A stretch of 20,436 bases of DNA. Source: a virus. The position numbers and the translations under genes were made by a program. Position 1 is the first letter of the stretch; each line of letters opens with the position of its first letter. Under the pieces are notes generated by a model. The model was not told the origin of the DNA and searched no databases. It was given only the letters and a program-made list of their open reading frames with translations. This document shows, piece by piece, positions 986 through 15,640 of the stretch. The DNA lies in IMG/VR virus record IMGVR_UViG_3300008450_000604, positions 1 to 20,436 of that record. One strand, given 5' to 3'.

Positions 986-2563
986 TCAGACCTCCAAGCG
1001 GTCGGCGGCGTCATCGGGGAGCGTCGCCAGGGTCAGGCTCACTATACCCCGAAGCGGGTCGGGCTGCACGGAAACGACCATCGCCAGCCGGGCCGACCAT
1101 CCGAGCGCGGTGCTGGCATAGAGCCCGCCGGCGTAGGGGTACGTCCACCGCACCACGTCACCGGGGCACAGATCCCAGACGTCGAGGCCGACCACGTCAC
1201 AGGTGATCGACTCGCCGAGCACCCATGCCCATACCTTCAGCCGGGCCAAGGTCGCGCTGCGCACGTCGGAGCCGTAGGCCCAGAGCGACGCGGACACGTC
1301 GTAGACCTTGAGGACCGCTGACGGGTAGGACCGGACCGGGGAGCCTGCCGACGACGTGGCGGACGTGTCTTTGACGCCGACGTTGCCATAGGTCAGGTTT
1401 GACCAGTCTGGGGTCGCCACGCTCAGCGACGCGGGTTCGACCTGCGCCGGGTCGATCCCGTACCGCTGGACCCGGGCCGTCGCGGCGCTCTGGGGGCGGA
1501 GGTCCTGACAGCAGCGCAGGGTGATCAAGCCCTGTCGGACAGTCAGGAACACGCCGTAGGGCGCGATCACGCCGTTGAGCCATGCAAGGCCGTCGTCGGG
1601 ATTCGGGTCAACGACGACCTCGATCTCGCCCCCGCCGGTCATGCTGGTCAGCGCGCTGTTCGTACTGCTCTGGATGTCCGCCACGTCGACGTGTAGGCCG
1701 TCCCGCAGGCCGTATCCCCACGTCTCGGGCAGGACGTCATAGGCGCCGTTGGTGCCTGCGCCGGTCGACGTCAGGATCTTGCAGACGAAGGCCGGGATGG
1801 TCCCGAAGACGAGCGGCACGTACTCGACAACGCTGCCCAGCGCGGCGTTTACGGCGGTGGTGCCGTAGGTCACCGACGCGCTGACGCCGGTCAGGCGGTT
1901 GGGTCCTGTCGCTGACCCGGTGAACCGCAGGTAGAAGGCCGCCGCTCCGCTTGCCGGTGTGATCTTGACGACGCCGGTCGCCCCGGTCTGTCGGGTCGCC
2001 GCAGGCTCGGCCGCGCCGATGGTCAGCGTGGTGTCTCCGACCGTGTAGCCGGCCGAGAGCGTCGTCGGGGCGCGGTACTTGGAGAACAACTGCGGCTCGG
2101 CCTTCAGGTCACCGCCGCCGGCCCATCGAGCGGTCAGCGCTGCGACGATATCCCAGACCTCGAAGGTCAAGACGCTGTCCGCGCCGATCTCGGTCTTGGA
2201 GATCCGCCCCTGCGCGATGGTCTGAAAGTCGGTCCACGCATCGCCGGGAAAGCCCATGCGCAGCCGCACCACGGTCCCGCGACCCAAGGCGCGCAGGATG
2301 GTCAGGCGCCGGCCCTCTTCGGGTGCGCCTGCGATGACCGCGAAGCGCCACGCGCCGGACTCCGGCACCCATTCAATCGGCTGGACGCTGTACTGACCGA
2401 AGGTCAAACCGTCGACATGGAGCCACGGATAGACCGTCTGCAGCGCGCCGGCGGTGATCGGCGCCGAGGCAAACAGGTCGAGGCTCTCTTCGGACTGGAT
2501 CACGAAGATCGGCGCGAGCACGCCCGCGGCGAGTCGCTCCCGGAAGACCAGCGGCCACCCCAT
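986..2563 (-). CDS. putative tail hub/baseplate protein (525 aa)
   Basis: ATG at 2563 overlaps the upstream stop as TGATG. The protein has a beta-rich N-terminal half with the run RGTVVRLRMGFPG, then TDFQTIAQGRIS and LTFEVWDIVAAL (about residues 95-145). A central region is rich in Gly, Thr and Ala. Residues 300-500 include GGGEIEVVVDPNPDDG and VVRWTYPY, and look like a second set of beta domains. In siphophages the second large gene after the tape measure usually encodes the central hub (Tal/gp27-like). Size, beta content and position fit, but no peptidase or lysozyme motif is visible, so the hub label is inferred. It is presumably virion-associated at the distal tail end. Confidence 0.75.
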   Translation of the reverse strand: MGWPLVFRERLAAGVLAPIFVIQSEESLDLFASAPITAGALQTVYPWLHVDGLTFGQYSVQPIEWVPESGAWRFAVIAGAPEEGRRLTILRALGRGTVVRLRMGFPGDAWTDFQTIAQGRISKTEIGADSVLTFEVWDIVAALTARWAGGGDLKAEPQLFSKYRAPTTLSAGYTVGDTTLTIGAAEPAATRQTGATGVVKITPASGAAAFYLRFTGSATGPNRLTGVSASVTYGTTAVNAALGSVVEYVPLVFGTIPAFVCKILTSTGAGTNGAYDVLPETWGYGLRDGLHVDVADIQSSTNSALTSMTGGGEIEVVVDPNPDDGLAWLNGVIAPYGVFLTVRQGLITLRCCQDLRPQSAATARVQRYGIDPAQVEPASLSVATPDWSNLTYGNVGVKDTSATSSAGSPVRSYPSAVLKVYDVSASLWAYGSDVRSATLARLKVWAWVLGESITCDVVGLDVWDLCPGDVVRWTYPYAGGLYASTALGWSARLAMVVSVQPDPLRGIVSLTLATLPDDAADRLEV

Positions 2564-3345
2564 CAGGTCCGCCCCTGCAGCCCGCGGGGCGCGCTCAGGG
2601 TGGCCGACCCACGCGGGGCCCGGCCGATGGCCTGCTCCAGCGACCTCAGCAGCGCCGACGTGTGAGGCGTGGTCGACGTTCCGAGCGCGACGCCCCGCAG
2701 CGCGGCGAGGTGCCCGGGGTGCTCGATCAGCGGGAGCGTGAGCGTGTGGTATAGCTCGCGGTCGCTGACCAGCTCGGCGATGTCGCCCGGGTCGAGCGTC
2801 AAGACCGGCCAGAACCCGTAGGGGCGGATCGCGATGGGCGTGCTGCGCAGGTTGCCGTAAACACCGCTCTGCAGCGTCAGGATGCCCGACGACGACACCG
2901 AAGAGAAGGGGCGGTCCTCAAGCGCGCTCTCGGGGTTCGGCGACTGGATCAAGAGCCGGTCTCCTGCGACGAGCGCCGCGGACGGCTCCCACGCGGCCAT
3001 CTGTGAGCCGCCGCTGGTGAAGAGGATCGACTGCCCCGCGTTGATCGGGCGGTCGCTGAAGGCAAGGATGGCCTTGGACGGCTCCAAGGCGAAACCGACC
3101 GCGCCGCCCCTGCGCAGGTGGGCGATGAGCTGCCGATAGTCGTCGACGTCGGCGGCGGGGATCTGCGGGACCTCAATCGTGACCCGCCATCGGCTGCCGT
3201 ACTGGACCCGGACGGCGAGCCCGCCGGGGGTTGACGCCCCGTCGGCGAGGCTCTCTTGCACAGCCTGCAGGTCGGACGGGTACACGTCGAGCGTGTTGAG
3301 GCGCGCCGATCCCCATCCGTACCAGTAGAAGCGCGAAGCCGACAT
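2563..3345 (-). CDS. putative distal tail protein (260 aa)
   Basis: ATG at 3345 overlaps the tape-measure stop (TGATG), and the gene's own stop overlaps the start of the hub-like gene in the same way. It is the first gene after the tape measure, the usual place for the distal tail (Dit-like) protein joining tail tube and hub. The N-terminus (FYWYGWGSARLNTLDVYPSD) and the segment VRVQYGSRWRVTIEVPQIP look like a compact beta domain. LIAHLRRGGAVGFALEP and GFWPVLTLDPGDIAEL follow. There are no membrane segments or catalytic motifs. I cannot match a named family with confidence, so the call rests on gene order and beta character. Confidence 0.75.
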   Translation of the reverse strand: MSASRFYWYGWGSARLNTLDVYPSDLQAVQESLADGASTPGGLAVRVQYGSRWRVTIEVPQIPAADVDDYRQLIAHLRRGGAVGFALEPSKAILAFSDRPINAGQSILFTSGGSQMAAWEPSAALVAGDRLLIQSPNPESALEDRPFSSVSSSGILTLQSGVYGNLRSTPIAIRPYGFWPVLTLDPGDIAELVSDRELYHTLTLPLIEHPGHLAALRGVALGTSTTPHTSALLRSLEQAIGRAPRGSATLSAPRGLQGRT

Positions 3346-5747
3346 CAGGTGCCCCCGATCACGGTTGTACCACGCCGCAGACCGCCAGGACGGGTCATCC
3401 GGTCGAGGTCACGAAGGGCGCGCGGCACCACGTCGGGGTGGAGGCTGGCGGCCTGCAGGACCAGCGTGGGGCCTCCCTGCGCGCTCTGGCGGCTGCGCCC
3501 GGTGCGCGGGTCGGTCGGCTGCCCGGGGCGGCCTCGGGGGTCGGTGACGGCGAGAGCTGCGGCCTGCAGGTCCCGAAGCTCTTGGGCGCGGCCCTCGCTG
3601 ACACGGCGGCCTCGGCCTTGATCCCCGGGCGTGAAGATGTCCTTGAACCACGATTTTACGCGGTCCCACGTCTCCCGCCACCACTCCCGCACGCCGTCGG
3701 CGATGCTGCGGGCGATGCCCCGGAAACCGCCGATGTCGCGCCACCAAAGGACGATGCCGCGGACGATGGCGACGGGTAGCTCGATGAGGATCGCGACAAA
3801 CATCCGGGGCACGTTGGCGATCAGGGCGGGGATCAGCTCGGTGATCAGCGTCACGACAAGGTCGGGGATGAACTTGCGGACCAACGCAGGCAGCATCTTG
3901 AAGCCCGCGATGAGGCCGTCAACGCCGGACATCAGGCTCTTAGACGTAGCGCCCGCGCCCTGCTGCCCGAGCGCGGTGATTCCGCTGATCGCTGCGCCGA
4001 TGGCTGCGCCGTAGGGGCCGGCGACCGCGGCGATCTTGCCGAGCATGCCGTCCTGGCCGGCGAAGGCATCGGCAAACTTTGCGGCGAGGGCGGTGACGCC
4101 CTTACTCATCGCTCCGGTGATGTCTCCACCGATCACGTCACCGATGGCGCCACCGACCCGGGCGCCGCGCTGGACCGCCTTGGCATACTCTGCGCCGAGG
4201 GTGGTCATCAGCCCGCGGAGGTCCTTCTCCACGCCTGCCAAGCCCGACACGACACCGTTGACCAGCGCGTCGGTGACCTGACCCGAGAGGTTATCAGCCC
4301 AGCCCTGCAGGCCCGGGTTGTCCGCAGCCAAGCGTTGCGCATCGCTGAGAAGCAGGGTCAACCGCTGATAGTCGTCGAGCACGTCCTGCGGCGGGGCGAT
4401 CTGGTTGATCGCCGCTTCGAGGTCTCGGGCCGACTGGATCGCCGCGGGCGGGATGAGGTCAGCCGGGACCGACAGGGCGGACTCAAGGCGCTCGCGGTCT
4501 TGGAATGCATCGAGAGCCTTGACCAGATCGTCATACTTGGCCTTCAGCTCTGACAGGTGCCGCTTGGATTCTTGCCGGGCCTTGTTGGCGGCCTCTTCGC
4601 GGTCCTTCTCTTCGGCCAGCGCCCGGCCGTACTCTTCTGTGGCAGTGATGATGCCGAGGCGCTCGGTGTAGAGCTTGCCCAACTCATCGCGCTCCTTCTC
4701 GGCCGCGGCGAGCTTCTCGGTCGCGGTCTGTCGGGAGATCGCCGCCTCTTCGCGCTGCGACTCGGTGAGACTGTTTAGGACGCTGGTGTCCTTCATCTTC
4801 GCGTCAACAGCGTCGATATGCGCCTTCTGCTGCTCAATCGTGAGCGCGATGTCGCGGCGCTTCGACTCAACCTGATCGTCAAGGGCGATCCGGGACCGCT
4901 CGGACTGCGCGGCGTAGCGGTCGATCTCTCCGGTCAGCTCTTTGAGTCCGATCTCGGCGTCTTTGTTTGCAGCCCGAAGTCCTGCGATGGCAAGCCGCAC
5001 GCCGTCGATCTTCTCTTGCGCAGTCGCGGCGCGGTCGCCAGTCTCTTGCAGGCGGGCGCCCAGCCGACCGTTCGCGTCGTCAGCGTCGGTGGTCGCGTTC
5101 TTGAGCGCGATCATCGCTGTCACGAGCGCGGCGGCTGCGATGGCTACACCCGCGAGCATGCCAGCCACGGGCGCCAGCTTTGTCAGCATCCCACCGAACG
5201 ACGCTTTGAGCACTTCGGCCGCTTCGGTGGCGTCGCCCAAGGCTGCTGCGATCTCCGGGCCCTGCTGCATCAGGACCATAAACGGAGAGCCGCCGCCAGC
5301 CAACTGCTGCCCGACGTCCATCAGGTTGTAGCGGAGGGTCATCACCCGTCCGCTCAGGTTCTTGATCTGGTCTGCCTTGCTCCCGTCCGGATCCGGGTCA
5401 GGGATCGGCGGGATGGGTGACGGCGAGGGCATCGGGCCGGGTGTTGGTGATCCGTCCGCCCCTTGCTGTCCGCGCGGCAAAAACCGCCCGTCAGGGCCAC
5501 GCTGGGGACCGACCTTGCCCTGCTGTGCCGCCAGCGCAGCCGCAGCCCGCGCCGCTTCCTCCGACGCCTGCGCCTGCCGCTCAAGCGCCGCCGCGGTGTC
5601 GGCCGCCTGTTGATCGAGCGCGTCGCCTGACTTGGTGACGGCGGCCTGTTCGCTGGCCAACTTGTCAGCGTTGCTCGCCGCAGCCAAAAACGCCCGGCTG
5701 GCCTCGTCTTTGGCCCGGATGATCGCCTCGATGATGTTGTCTGCCAA
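3345..5747 (-). CDS. tail length tape measure protein (800 aa)
   Basis: The start is TTG at 5747, placed 6 nt after GAGG-type Shine-Dalgarno sequence lying in the end of the chaperone frame; no upstream ATG is in frame. Residues 1-75 are Ala/Glu/Gln-rich and probably coiled coil. Residues 80-125 form a Pro/Gly-rich linker. Residues 141-170 carry the TMP_2-like block (NLMDVGQQLAGG, then PFMVLMQQGPEIAA), typical of lambda-H/prophage tape measure proteins. A hydrophobic segment lies at about 191-216, followed by long charged helices to about 450 and further hydrophobic stretches near 640-690 (MFVAILIELPVAIVRGIVLW). The protein sets tail length and probably enters or crosses the host membrane. 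At about 0.15 nm per residue, 800 residues predict a tail near 120 nm, an inferred upper estimate. Confidence 0.93.
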   Translation of the reverse strand: MADNIIEAIIRAKDEASRAFLAAASNADKLASEQAAVTKSGDALDQQAADTAAALERQAQASEEAARAAAALAAQQGKVGPQRGPDGRFLPRGQQGADGSPTPGPMPSPSPIPPIPDPDPDGSKADQIKNLSGRVMTLRYNLMDVGQQLAGGGSPFMVLMQQGPEIAAALGDATEAAEVLKASFGGMLTKLAPVAGMLAGVAIAAAALVTAMIALKNATTDADDANGRLGARLQETGDRAATAQEKIDGVRLAIAGLRAANKDAEIGLKELTGEIDRYAAQSERSRIALDDQVESKRRDIALTIEQQKAHIDAVDAKMKDTSVLNSLTESQREEAAISRQTATEKLAAAEKERDELGKLYTERLGIITATEEYGRALAEEKDREEAANKARQESKRHLSELKAKYDDLVKALDAFQDRERLESALSVPADLIPPAAIQSARDLEAAINQIAPPQDVLDDYQRLTLLLSDAQRLAADNPGLQGWADNLSGQVTDALVNGVVSGLAGVEKDLRGLMTTLGAEYAKAVQRGARVGGAIGDVIGGDITGAMSKGVTALAAKFADAFAGQDGMLGKIAAVAGPYGAAIGAAISGITALGQQGAGATSKSLMSGVDGLIAGFKMLPALVRKFIPDLVVTLITELIPALIANVPRMFVAILIELPVAIVRGIVLWWRDIGGFRGIARSIADGVREWWRETWDRVKSWFKDIFTPGDQGRGRRVSEGRAQELRDLQAAALAVTDPRGRPGQPTDPRTGRSRQSAQGGPTLVLQAASLHPDVVPRALRDLDRMTRPGGLRRGTTVIGGT

Positions 5748-5750
5748 CGG

Positions 5751-6432
5751 CTACCTCATCGAGTCGGAGAGGGCGGAGAGGAGCGCGGGAATGGGGCCGT
5801 GCTCTGCGTCGTGAGCATACCCCGCGCGGGCGCAGACTGCATCCCAGACCACGGCCTCCCAGGGGTCGGTCAGGCCGAGGACTGCGGAGGGTCGCTGGCC
5901 ATACCGGCGCGCGGCGAGGTCTGTGGTGACGGCGAGGTCAGGATCAGCCCGCGCGAAACGAACCGACCGACTGGACCGCCTCCAGGGCCTGCCGCATGGC
6001 CTCCTGAGTGATGGCGATCTGGCCCGATGCGCTGACCGACAGGATCGACAGGCGACCGGCGGCGGGGTCATCCTTGCCCACGCCGACGATCTGACAGTCG
6101 GTCCACACGTCGGAGCCCTGCGCCCGGACGCCGGTCACAGCGGCCAAGACCGCCTTCTCGCCGCCGTCGAGCATCGCCCGGATCGTCGACTCGATGACCG
6201 CGCCAGCCGGGGCGGCCTCGGCACCGGCGGACGGCTGCGACTGCGCGACCGCGGCGCCGATGACCCCGGACAGGAGCCCCGCACGGGTGGCCTCGGCGAC
6301 CGAGAAGCGCTTGACGCGCCACTCGACTGGGACGCCGTTGGAGATGTCGGGGACCGCGGCGGTGCCGGCGACGGAGAGGGAGGCGAGGCTGAAGGCCGGG
6401 GCGGCCGGGGCCTCGGGGGCATCAGGCGTCAT
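5751..6432 (-). CDS. tail assembly chaperone, predicted frameshift product (G-T type)
   Basis: This entry joins the 162-aa chaperone frame to an overlapping downstream frame ending at 5751. The downstream frame reads ARADPDLAVTTDLAARRYG and LTDPWEAVVWDAVCARAGYA, which look like real protein. It has no credible start near the junction: its only upstream ATG (6071) gives an Arg/Ser-rich antisense-like peptide. Relative to the first frame the second is +1, equivalent to -2. Near the stop the codons are tcg-ttt-cgc-gcg-ggc-tga. A tRNA-Phe slip from TTT to TTC would give +1, and an Ala tRNA re-pairing from GCG to GCG in CGCGCG would give -2. Siphophage tail chaperones are usually made as a short and a frameshifted long form, both acting on the tape measure before tube polymerisation. 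The fused protein would be about 226 aa. Confidence 0.6.
5944..6432 (-). CDS. tail assembly chaperone, short form (162 aa)
   Basis: I chose ATG at 6432, which overlaps the major tail gene's end by 11 nt. An in-frame extension to 6489 would lie wholly over the tail tube gene and reads as shadow sequence. The Ala/Pro-rich N-terminus is followed by FSLASLSVAGTAAVPDI, VEWRVKRFSVAEATRAG and a long helical C-terminal half (ESTIRAMLDGGEKAVLAAVTG, then ITQEAMRQALEAVQSVG). Position between tail tube and tape measure, size and helical content match the first tail assembly chaperone (lambda gpG type). It should be a cytoplasmic assembly factor absent from the virion. It was identified mainly by synteny, because these proteins diverge quickly in sequence. 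Confidence 0.8.
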   Translation of the reverse strand: MTPDAPEAPAAPAFSLASLSVAGTAAVPDISNGVPVEWRVKRFSVAEATRAGLLSGVIGAAVAQSQPSAGAEAAPAGAVIESTIRAMLDGGEKAVLAAVTGVRAQGSDVWTDCQIVGVGKDDPAAGRLSILSVSASGQIAITQEAMRQALEAVQSVGSFRAG

Positions 6433-7339
6433 AGGTGGCCTCGCCGTTGGTGAGCACGATCCCGGGGTTGCCGATGCTCTCGAACTCAATCGACGTGGTG
6501 AGGTCGGAGATGGACTCGCCGATGGTCTCGCTCACCTTGACCGTGCAGTCCTGAATGGTGTAGACCAGCGTCTTCGCACCGGTCGCGGTGTCGGTACAGG
6601 TGATCACGAGGTCGCCGGTGGTGTCGGCGACCTCGGAGGACCGCGGGGTAAACGAGTCCTTGTCAACAACGATGGTGGTCCTCACCTCGCGGACGCCGAC
6701 AGAGGGCTCAGCGGTGCGGAGCGACCCAAGCTGCGGGCGGCGGTTCAGGTTGTTCGAGAGCACCGACGACAGGCTCTTGATCGTGCCCAAAGACGACCCG
6801 CCCCAAGTGACGGTGACCTCGAAGTGCTCGATGGGGACGGCACTGGTCAGCGACGGCGAACCGGCGGACGATGCGGCGGCCTTGGACTGCGCGATGATGT
6901 CGAAGGCGAACGTGACCTCGCTGCCCGGGGTCGCGTTCATCGTCATGCTGTTGACCTTGCACCCCGCGAAGACCTCGCTGTTGCCCGACGTGCCGACCAA
7001 CTGCTCGATGGTTAGGGAGGGCAGCGCGGAGGCAGCGGCGAAGGTGAACGGTCCGGCACCGCTGACGGTCCCGAGCGCAGCCCGCAGGAGCATCCCGAGC
7101 GCGCTGTAGGACCCCGGGACGGTGACGGTCCCGCCGACCTGCTCATCGGCCACGAAACGGGTCTCGACGAAGGCTGCCGACGTGTGCGCCAGCCGGCCGC
7201 GGGTCGCGCGGTTGCGGGGGGTCTGCGTCAGCGACGACCCGTTGAGGTGGCACCACTTGGTGCGGCTAACAGCGGTGCCGGCGGTGGACTCAAGGCCCAA
7301 GCCGAGGCACGATCCGAGGGAGCGGTAGGGGACGGCCAT
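6422..7339 (-). CDS. major tail tube protein (305 aa)
   Basis: ATG at 7339 has an excellent Shine-Dalgarno (AGGAGG, 7 nt upstream) in a 32-nt spacer after the DUF2341-like gene. The protein is rich in Ser, Thr, Gly and Val with regular beta-strand patterns. The N-terminus (LGLGLESTAGTAVSRTKWCHL) resembles the 'phage tail tube protein' family, in which the start reads like a strand-loop over the first 40 residues. Typical tube elements include GTVTVPGSYSALGMLLRAAL, a central MTMNATPGSEVTFAFDIIAQ and the C-terminal DLTTSIEFES. It polymerises into the tail tube around the tape measure protein. The 305-residue length suggests an added C-terminal beta domain beyond the minimal tube fold. Position just before the chaperones supports the call. 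Confidence 0.88.
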   Translation of the reverse strand: MAVPYRSLGSCLGLGLESTAGTAVSRTKWCHLNGSSLTQTPRNRATRGRLAHTSAAFVETRFVADEQVGGTVTVPGSYSALGMLLRAALGTVSGAGPFTFAAASALPSLTIEQLVGTSGNSEVFAGCKVNSMTMNATPGSEVTFAFDIIAQSKAAASSAGSPSLTSAVPIEHFEVTVTWGGSSLGTIKSLSSVLSNNLNRRPQLGSLRTAEPSVGVREVRTTIVVDKDSFTPRSSEVADTTGDLVITCTDTATGAKTLVYTIQDCTVKVSETIGESISDLTTSIEFESIGNPGIVLTNGEATYDA

Positions 7340-14162: not shown

Positions 14163-15640
14163 TACTCCTCCCCGGACAGGGCGGCGAGGTCGTCGCGAAC
14201 GGATGCGAGGGCGGCGAGGGCTTCGGCCTTGGCCTCGTCCGTGGCGTCGGGATCGGCGAGGACGTCAAGCGCATCGGTCATGTCGGCGACCATGCCCGGC
14301 ACGTCTTCGAGCGCGTCGGAGACGTCGGGCATGTCCTCGGGGTCATCGCTGTCGTCGTCTGGCGAGTCGTCGACCGGGGGCGGGGGCGGCGCGCCTGGGG
14401 TCGCGGTCTGCGTGACCGGGGCGGAGGTGAAGGCGCCGGGGGGCAGGTCATCCCAACCCTCGTAGGCGTAGGCGACGGCCGCATCCATGCCGTTCGCGAT
14501 GTGGGCGGTGATCCGGTCGAGCGTGGCCTTCATCGCGCCCTGCAGCGCAGGCACGCCGCTGAAGTCGTGCTCGACGGTGATGCTGTCGTCGCGGTCGACG
14601 CTGCGGGCAAGGGCGGTCAGCGCTTCGTCGAACTCGGCGACGCGGCCCTGAAGCTGCGTCCAATAGGCGGTCATCTGCGTGTCCGACGTTGCCCAGGTGT
14701 TGGCGCCGTCCGCGCCGATGCGGACCGGGGGCACTGACAGCACGGCCAGCACGCTCTCGCGAATCCAGCGGCGCTGCTGCGGGGCCTCCATCTCGCGAGG
14801 GGCCCAGCCGAGGATCGACAGCTCTGCGTTAGCCTCGCCTGAGACGACGACCCCGCCGTCGTTGTCCACGAACAGACGCTTGAGCGCGTCGCGGATCGTC
14901 TCGACCTGTCGCGCGCTCCACGCCGACACGCCGTCGCCCTTGGGGCGGTAGATCGCGGCGGGGCGGCCGGCGGCGGCGGCTTTGGCTGCGCTTGCGGAGA
15001 GGGCCCTGTCGGCGAGCAGGTCGCTGTGGAGCACCTGCGTCGCGCCGAAGCCCGACAAGATCTCAGGCCCGTCTTGCCAGCCGAGGGCCAACATCGCGAT
15101 GACCTGATCGGGCCTGTACTGCTTGATCTGGTCGAGGCCGATGTCGTACCCGAGCGGCGTGCCGTCCGCCCCGGGCACCACGCGGACGCGGGCCGGGTGC
15201 GACCACCGGACGCCGACCGGGACGCCCCGAGCGGCGCCCCAGAGGACCACGCTGGCCGTCTTGCCGGCGAGGATCCGGTCGGTCATCACCTGCTTGCGCC
15301 ACGTCCGCTGCGACGGGAAGCCGGTGTTGGCGAGCATCCCGTGGACCCAGTGCTTGGGCACGGGTTCGCCGTTCCGCTTGACCACGATGGGCAAGCTCGC
15401 GAGGTCGTCGGTGATGGCCTCGGTGCATGCGTAGACATACGCATTGCCCTTGGCTGAGAGCGCGAGGGTCGGGCTGTAGACTGACTCAATCGGCGCGCCC
15501 GCGGCGTAGTCCCCGCCGGCGACGACTTCCTTCGGCTTCTCGACGGTCGACGTGAGGCCGAGCGCCCGAGCGACGGCGGCGACGGCCCGCCCGGTCAGGG
15601 TGGACGTGCGCAGGGCGAGGGGTGCGGGATCGGCGCTCAT
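14162..15640 (-). CDS. portal protein, HK97 type (492 aa)
   Basis: ATG at 15640 is used because the longer frame to 15892 is a shadow of the terminase gene. HK97-type portal landmarks are visible: ANAYVYACTEAITDDLASLP-like crown/wing entry (residues 65-84, starting KGNAYVYA), DRILAGKTASVVL (121-133), the clip/stem region WSARQVETIRDALKRL, and the closing ESVLAVLSVPPVRIGADGAN (295-314) followed by TQMTAYWTQLQ. It forms the dodecameric ring at one capsid vertex through which DNA enters and leaves. Residues 418-422 are polyproline, and 423-492 form an unusually acidic tail. The start has no convincing Shine-Dalgarno, and a promoter-like sequence lies just upstream. Confidence 0.93.
   Translation of the reverse strand: MSADPAPLALRTSTLTGRAVAAVARALGLTSTVEKPKEVVAGGDYAAGAPIESVYSPTLALSAKGNAYVYACTEAITDDLASLPIVVKRNGEPVPKHWVHGMLANTGFPSQRTWRKQVMTDRILAGKTASVVLWGAARGVPVGVRWSHPARVRVVPGADGTPLGYDIGLDQIKQYRPDQVIAMLALGWQDGPEILSGFGATQVLHSDLLADRALSASAAKAAAAGRPAAIYRPKGDGVSAWSARQVETIRDALKRLFVDNDGGVVVSGEANAELSILGWAPREMEAPQQRRWIRESVLAVLSVPPVRIGADGANTWATSDTQMTAYWTQLQGRVAEFDEALTALARSVDRDDSITVEHDFSGVPALQGAMKATLDRITAHIANGMDAAVAYAYEGWDDLPPGAFTSAPVTQTATPGAPPPPPVDDSPDDDSDDPEDMPDVSDALEDVPGMVADMTDALDVLADPDATDEAKAEALAALASVRDDLAALSGEE

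Follow-up and report, generated by a model that had tools for sequence, protein, structure and literature searches.

How is the second of two overlapping reading frames reached in a phage tail module, when it lies in the +1 (= −2) frame relative to the first, while most known tail-chaperone shifts are −1? The question arose from a 20,436-base IMG/VR virus record with a GC content of about 70%, the whole of which we analyzed and refer to as the window. Its minus strand carries a tail module made up of a tail tube gene, two small overlapping ORFs (ORF1 and ORF2) and then the tape measure gene, and portal, Mu-F-like, capsid and connector genes are found further upstream in the reading direction (Table 1). 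An earlier note on this DNA had read the ORF pair as a frameshifted tail chaperone and had proposed two sites for the shift within the last ORF1 codons (tcg-ttt-cgc-gcg-ggc-tga), either a +1 slip at TTT_C with the junction GSF-ARADPD or a −2 slip on GCG with the junction GSFRA-RADPD; both junctions follow from the sequence. Comparison of 12 distinct sequences supports the frameshifted chaperone reading, and the evidence set out below makes it very probable, as far as comparative sequence data go, that the two ORFs specify a gpG/gpGT-type tail chaperone pair made via a programmed +1 frameshift, with the P-site tRNA-Phe slipping at UUU_C.

Table 1. Coordinates of the tail module features in the window
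Feature	Position	Strand	Remarks
Tail tube gene (context)	6422..7339	minus	PF18906 Phage_tube_2, E=1.3e-20
ORF1	5944..6432	minus	Short tail assembly chaperone, gpG-like by position; 162 aa
GGAGG	5979..5983	minus	−25 to −21 from TTT; candidate stimulator, from the junction alignment
Shift site TCG_TTT_CGC	5953..5961	minus	TTT 5958-5956, C 5955; +1 slip UUU to UUC proposed
ORF2, from the shifted TTC codon	5751..5957	minus	Chaperone C-terminal, gpT-like domain; 68 aa, +1 frame
CGC_GCG	5950..5955	minus	Rival −2 re-pairing site, judged unused; elsewhere in the far clade, absent in L013
Tape measure gene (context)	3345..5747	minus	TTG start at 5747 (GTG or ATG in relatives); PF06791 TMP_2, E=1.1e-9; PHROG tape-measure families

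ORF1 begins with an ATG at 6432 and ends with a TGA at 5944-5946, and ORF2 is open as far as the TGA at 5751-5753. At the junction, around position 5950, the GC content by codon position shifts its register. We found no X_XXY_YYZ heptamer in the ORF1 register of the overlap, either in the window or in four relatives, which bears out what the earlier note had said about a classical heptamer. With a +1/−2 frame and no heptamer in register, the locus does not belong to the canonical −1 slippery type.

For comparison we scanned IMG/VR with the tube, chaperone (ORF1 and ORF2) and tape-measure proteins as queries and obtained 15 contigs with a related tube. The junction is covered by 13 other IMG/VR contigs, which together with the window give 12 distinct sequences, near-duplicates being taken once. 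These represent only two clades, well separated from each other: clade 1 consists of the window and L005-L008, and the far clade 2 of L009/L010, L012-L018 and L030. Over 350 nt at the junction the DNA is 73-97% identical within a clade and about 57% identical between clades, and the tail tube DNA is likewise about 57% identical between clades. The gene order, with the overlapping ORF pair between the tail tube and tape measure genes, is the same in the relatives; ORF1 is conserved in the 12 distinct loci, and the +1/−2 relation of the two ORFs is retained in all of them, in both clades, a recurrence well beyond chance. The ORF1 stop codon lies 12 nt past the start of the TTT codon in clade 1, including the window, and 36 nt past it in clade 2, so that a stop beside the site is not a conserved signal. 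We observed no match when annotated phages were searched by tblastn with ORF1, ORF2, tube, portal and tape measure, and none in two genome-collection scans for relatives. When viral sequences were scanned further, with the tube, ORF2, tape measure and ORF1 as queries, the same two clades came back together with L063 (IMGVR_UViG_3300013126_003256), which belongs to another phage and is about 37% identical in the tape measure. At 2433-3037 this phage has an unrelated chaperone pair in an apparently −1 relation, and the +1 arrangement is therefore not general among the tape-measure relatives.

We next compared the junction across these relatives, a check that the earlier note had suggested, and the result points to TTT_C. 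A re-pairing scan of every codon in the permitted overlap yielded TTT_C as the sole +1 or −2 site found in 12 of 12 distinct sequences, and because it is the only re-pairing site common to all of them the homologues favour +1 at TTT_C over −2 at GCG. All 12 distinct loci offer UUU_C, where the new frame would begin at UUC. The conserved context is TC(G/C)_TTT_C, and the A-site codon is CGC or CGT in 11 of the 12 distinct loci, window included, and CTT in the remaining one, L013 (TCC_TTT_CTT_GGG_CGC_CCA). The TTT itself is invariant (12/12), and the genes of the window use TTC and TTT at a ratio of 118:21, i.e. TTC makes up 85% of the Phe codons. TTT_CGN occurs a single time in the 6,141 codons of the window, at the shift site. 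ORF1 has 33 invariant residues with synonymous freedom, among which TTT is the sole clearly non-preferred codon that never varies; the other never-varying codons are few and all preferred ones.

The pattern of selection changes at the same place. Before the site the variable alignment columns fall mostly at third positions of ORF1 codons and after it mostly at third positions of ORF2 codons: counted by ORF1 codon position (1/2/3), the 150 nt preceding the site gave 23/19/55, the 33 nt that follow it 11/4/1 and the stretch after that 48/8/6. For this register switch, Fisher tests gave P = 6e-5 (+4..+36) and P = 4e-12 (+37..+198), values that serve as a guide only, since the sequences are related and not independent. 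In a change-point model the best position is +9 to +12, and roughly 0 to +15 lies within about 2 log units. Furthermore, the fusion predicted for a +1 shift at TTT_C aligns gap-free across the junction between the clades (SF-ARADPDL versus SF-VAAQPGL). Taken together, re-pairing, codon choice and selection are three lines that agree, and they point to a shift at TTT_C (5958-5955).

The strongest competitor that the sequence offers is a Mu-like −2 frameshift, in which the P-site tRNA-Ala would re-pair from GCG two bases back on CGCGCG and the fusion would contain one extra residue (GSFRA-RADPD). CGC_GCG is present in the window and in its four close relatives, and in six of seven far-clade sequences a CGC_GCA, which could re-pair to GCG, follows 6 nt later. 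However, this places the site at different alignment positions in the two clades, and there is no good one in L013 (CGC CCA), so that none is common to all loci as would be expected for the phage Mu type. A −2 shift would also leave the invariance of the rare TTT codon unexplained, and would place ORF1-frame residues ahead of the far-clade junction for which the near clade has no counterpart, whereas the +1 fusion needs no gap. We regard the −2 shift as unlikely; of the two sites put forward in the earlier note, TTT withstood the comparison and GCG, moved in the far clade and absent in L013, did not. A change of frame in the mRNA instead of on the ribosome, by transcriptional slippage adding or removing bases in some transcripts, would likewise join the frames, but the sole run at the site consists of three T, and longer ones are not conserved. 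Transcriptional slippage is known from homopolymer runs far longer than this and is hardly plausible here.

It is also conceivable that no frame change takes place and that ORF2 is an independent gene, with translation beginning at a codon of its own or resuming past the ORF1 stop by reinitiation. There is indeed an ORF2-frame ATG in the window at 6071, and a GTG or TTG occurs at +4 in some far-clade loci, but these starts are not conserved and the loci share no ORF2 start codon. In two close relatives of the window, L006 and L007, a stop closes the ORF2 frame 38 nt upstream of the shift site; between this stop and the site they contain no ATG, GTG, TTG, CTG, ATT or ATC, and no ATG, GTG or TTG follows until +106, which lies within the conserved domain. 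ORF2 must therefore be reached by a frame change in these phages. In addition, the ORF2 frame shows no coding register upstream of the site. A start codon of its own for the second frame, which the earlier note had named as a finding that would overturn the frameshift, is excluded by L006 and L007, and we consider a separate gene very unlikely. The note had named a sequencing error near the junction in the same sense. Metagenome contigs can carry indels, and one might suspect that the frame change was introduced in error during sequencing or assembly, or that ORF2 is a decaying pseudogene fragment. We found no specific support for an error, and the +1 (= −2) relation described in the note was confirmed in the window and recurs identically in 13 other contigs, by which a sequencing error is excluded. 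ORF2 is, moreover, under purifying selection, its third positions accounting for 48 of the 62 variable columns, and we give next to no credence to an error or a pseudogene.

Returning to the +1 shift at TTT_C, we analyzed the surroundings of the site for elements that could stimulate it. The sequence GGAGG is invariant in the window and 11 relatives (12/12), although the codon whose third base supplies its first G may encode Leu, Met or Arg, depending on the locus. The gap between GGAGG and TTT is 20 nt, longer than that of the prfB stimulator, and no Shine-Dalgarno-like element was found at the prfB spacing. GGAGG may have arisen by chance, may cause weak pausing, or may stimulate shifting in the manner of a Shine-Dalgarno sequence, though from unusually far away. 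RNA structure, downstream or upstream, was considered as a conserved stimulator and rejected (z-scores of −1.0 to +1.1 in four sequences, and of −1.0 to +1.0 on the downstream side), and a search of the window against Rfam gave no match. Phage tRNAs able to alter decoding were absent from the loci scanned. The A-site codon of the window's clade, CGC, is a common one (40 per 1000), and no slow A-site codon is obvious in this clade; that of the second clade, CGT, is little used in the genes of the window (2.9 per 1000).

The products of ORF1 and ORF2 were modelled separately. The AF2 model of the ORF2 domain consists of four helices (pLDDT 88.9), and the first-ranked Foldseek match is the tail assembly chaperone of Arthrobacter phage Wollypog (probability 1.00, E-value 0.15), with those of Microbacterium phage Rachella (rank 3, 0.98) and Mycobacterium phage Onyinye (rank 9, 0.69) also among the top ten. 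All three named chaperones are from actinobacteriophages, and their E-values are weak (0.15 to 3.3). Against the PDB the ORF2 model gave no informative match. These modelled fold matches support the chaperone reading, short of proof. ORF1 showed no chaperone or other family match when compared with family profiles, and its AF2 model is of low confidence (pLDDT 52); its single strong Foldseek match was set aside, as the underlying model is too poor. We identify ORF1 as a chaperone by position.

From these observations we infer the following course of translation. Most ribosomes would reach the ORF1 stop and release the 162-aa short chaperone. A minority, whose P-site tRNA-Phe (anticodon GAA) is paired with UUU, would slip forward by one base to UUC at a moment when the following zero-frame codon (CGC, CGU or CUU) is still undecoded in the A site. 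UUC is a better match than UUU for the single tRNA-Phe, so that forward slippage would be favourable as long as the A site is empty, an explanation that follows Firth et al. (PMC3498833). The slipped ribosomes would continue in ORF2 and produce a 226-aa fusion with the junction ...VGSF-ARADPDLAV.... As in lambda, the part common to both chaperone forms would be expected to cover the tape measure protein, with the tail tube subunit recruited by the added domain.

The host of this family of uncultured phages is probably bacterial, judging from one gene in one relative: in the 48-kb far-clade phage G006, L065:4844-6061 matches the C-terminal domain of the bacterial-type DNA polymerase III beta clamp. 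The neighbours of this gene include ribonucleotide reductase class II domains (partial match), ThyX, a YqaJ-like recombinase, a ParB-like protein and a GmrSD N-terminal domain protein.

Among known systems, lambda produces a short and an extended chaperone, gpG and gpGT, the latter with a C-terminal extension made by frameshift (PMC5009743). Lambda and most tailed phages have the same gene order as the present phages, but the shift there is −1, whereas here it would be +1 at UUU_C without a heptamer. The earlier note had named phage Mu and Listeria PSA as the best-known exceptions. The tail chaperone of Mu is made by a −2 shift (PMC3498833), with the same net frame and in the same kind of gene; a −2 site, however, is not conserved in the present family. 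The +1 shifts of Listeria PSA concern capsid and tail-shaft genes and not the chaperone (PMC5009743), and although PSA, A118 and A500 also use +1 in structural genes, they do so with proline CCC and a stop codon or pseudoknot.

Closer precedents than PSA are the HF1-group haloviruses, including HSTV-2 (Hafunaviridae), for which a slip at the same kind of site has been proposed and which likewise have two ORFs in a +1 relation between the tail tube and tape measure genes. In HSTV-2 (L064, KC117376) the first ORF is in a +1 relation to the second, TCC_TTT_CGC lies at 15486-15494 near the end of the first ORF, and a joined tail chaperone is annotated. These are archaeal viruses, HSTV-2 with a tail sheath gene, and their chaperone has no evident sequence relation to the present one; the present family, by contrast, probably has a bacterial host, and its site was tested by comparing two divergent clades.

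Sites of this kind are also known or proposed for viruses translated by eukaryotic ribosomes. In influenza A the +1 shift to PA-X at UCC_UUU_CGU was shown by mass spectrometry (PMC3498833); the E-P-A layout UCN_UUU_CGY is the same as here, but the gene is an unrelated one of an RNA virus. Plant amalgaviruses join two ORFs by reading UUU_CGN as U_UUC_GNN (PMC6356274) and thus share the UUU_CGN site, but they are eukaryotic double-stranded RNA viruses and the product is a polymerase. Firth et al. (2012) had predicted a class of +1 sites with UUU_C and restricted neighbouring codons (PMC3498833). The authors of PRFect, whose training set counts 350 forward-shift motif sites in actinobacteriophages, state that a general motif for forward shifts has yet to be identified (PMC10885494). 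Our literature search, which took in few subscription papers, found no published bacterial phage with a UUU_C site in the tail chaperone; a search for UUU_CGN in phages turned up only the plant viruses, and the HF1 haloviruses and influenza were found by a separate search.

For annotation, these loci provide a motif to look for in +1-related chaperone ORF pairs that lack a heptamer, and, as a probably bacterial system whose site is short and conserved, they make reporter and mass-spectrometry tests easy and would allow the E-site and A-site codon rules to be measured. We tentatively suggest, as a possibility that we do not yet favour, that UCN_UUU_CGY is a minimal +1 cassette that functions with the ribosomes of bacteria, archaea and eukaryotes and needs no stop codon, Shine-Dalgarno sequence or downstream structure, that it arose independently in viruses of all three domains, and that the present phages are a bacterial example pinned down by comparative data. 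The proposed +1 shift at UUU_C would be rare but not unprecedented: such a site is already established or proposed elsewhere, and the present phages would add an example of unrelated sequence and probably bacterial host.
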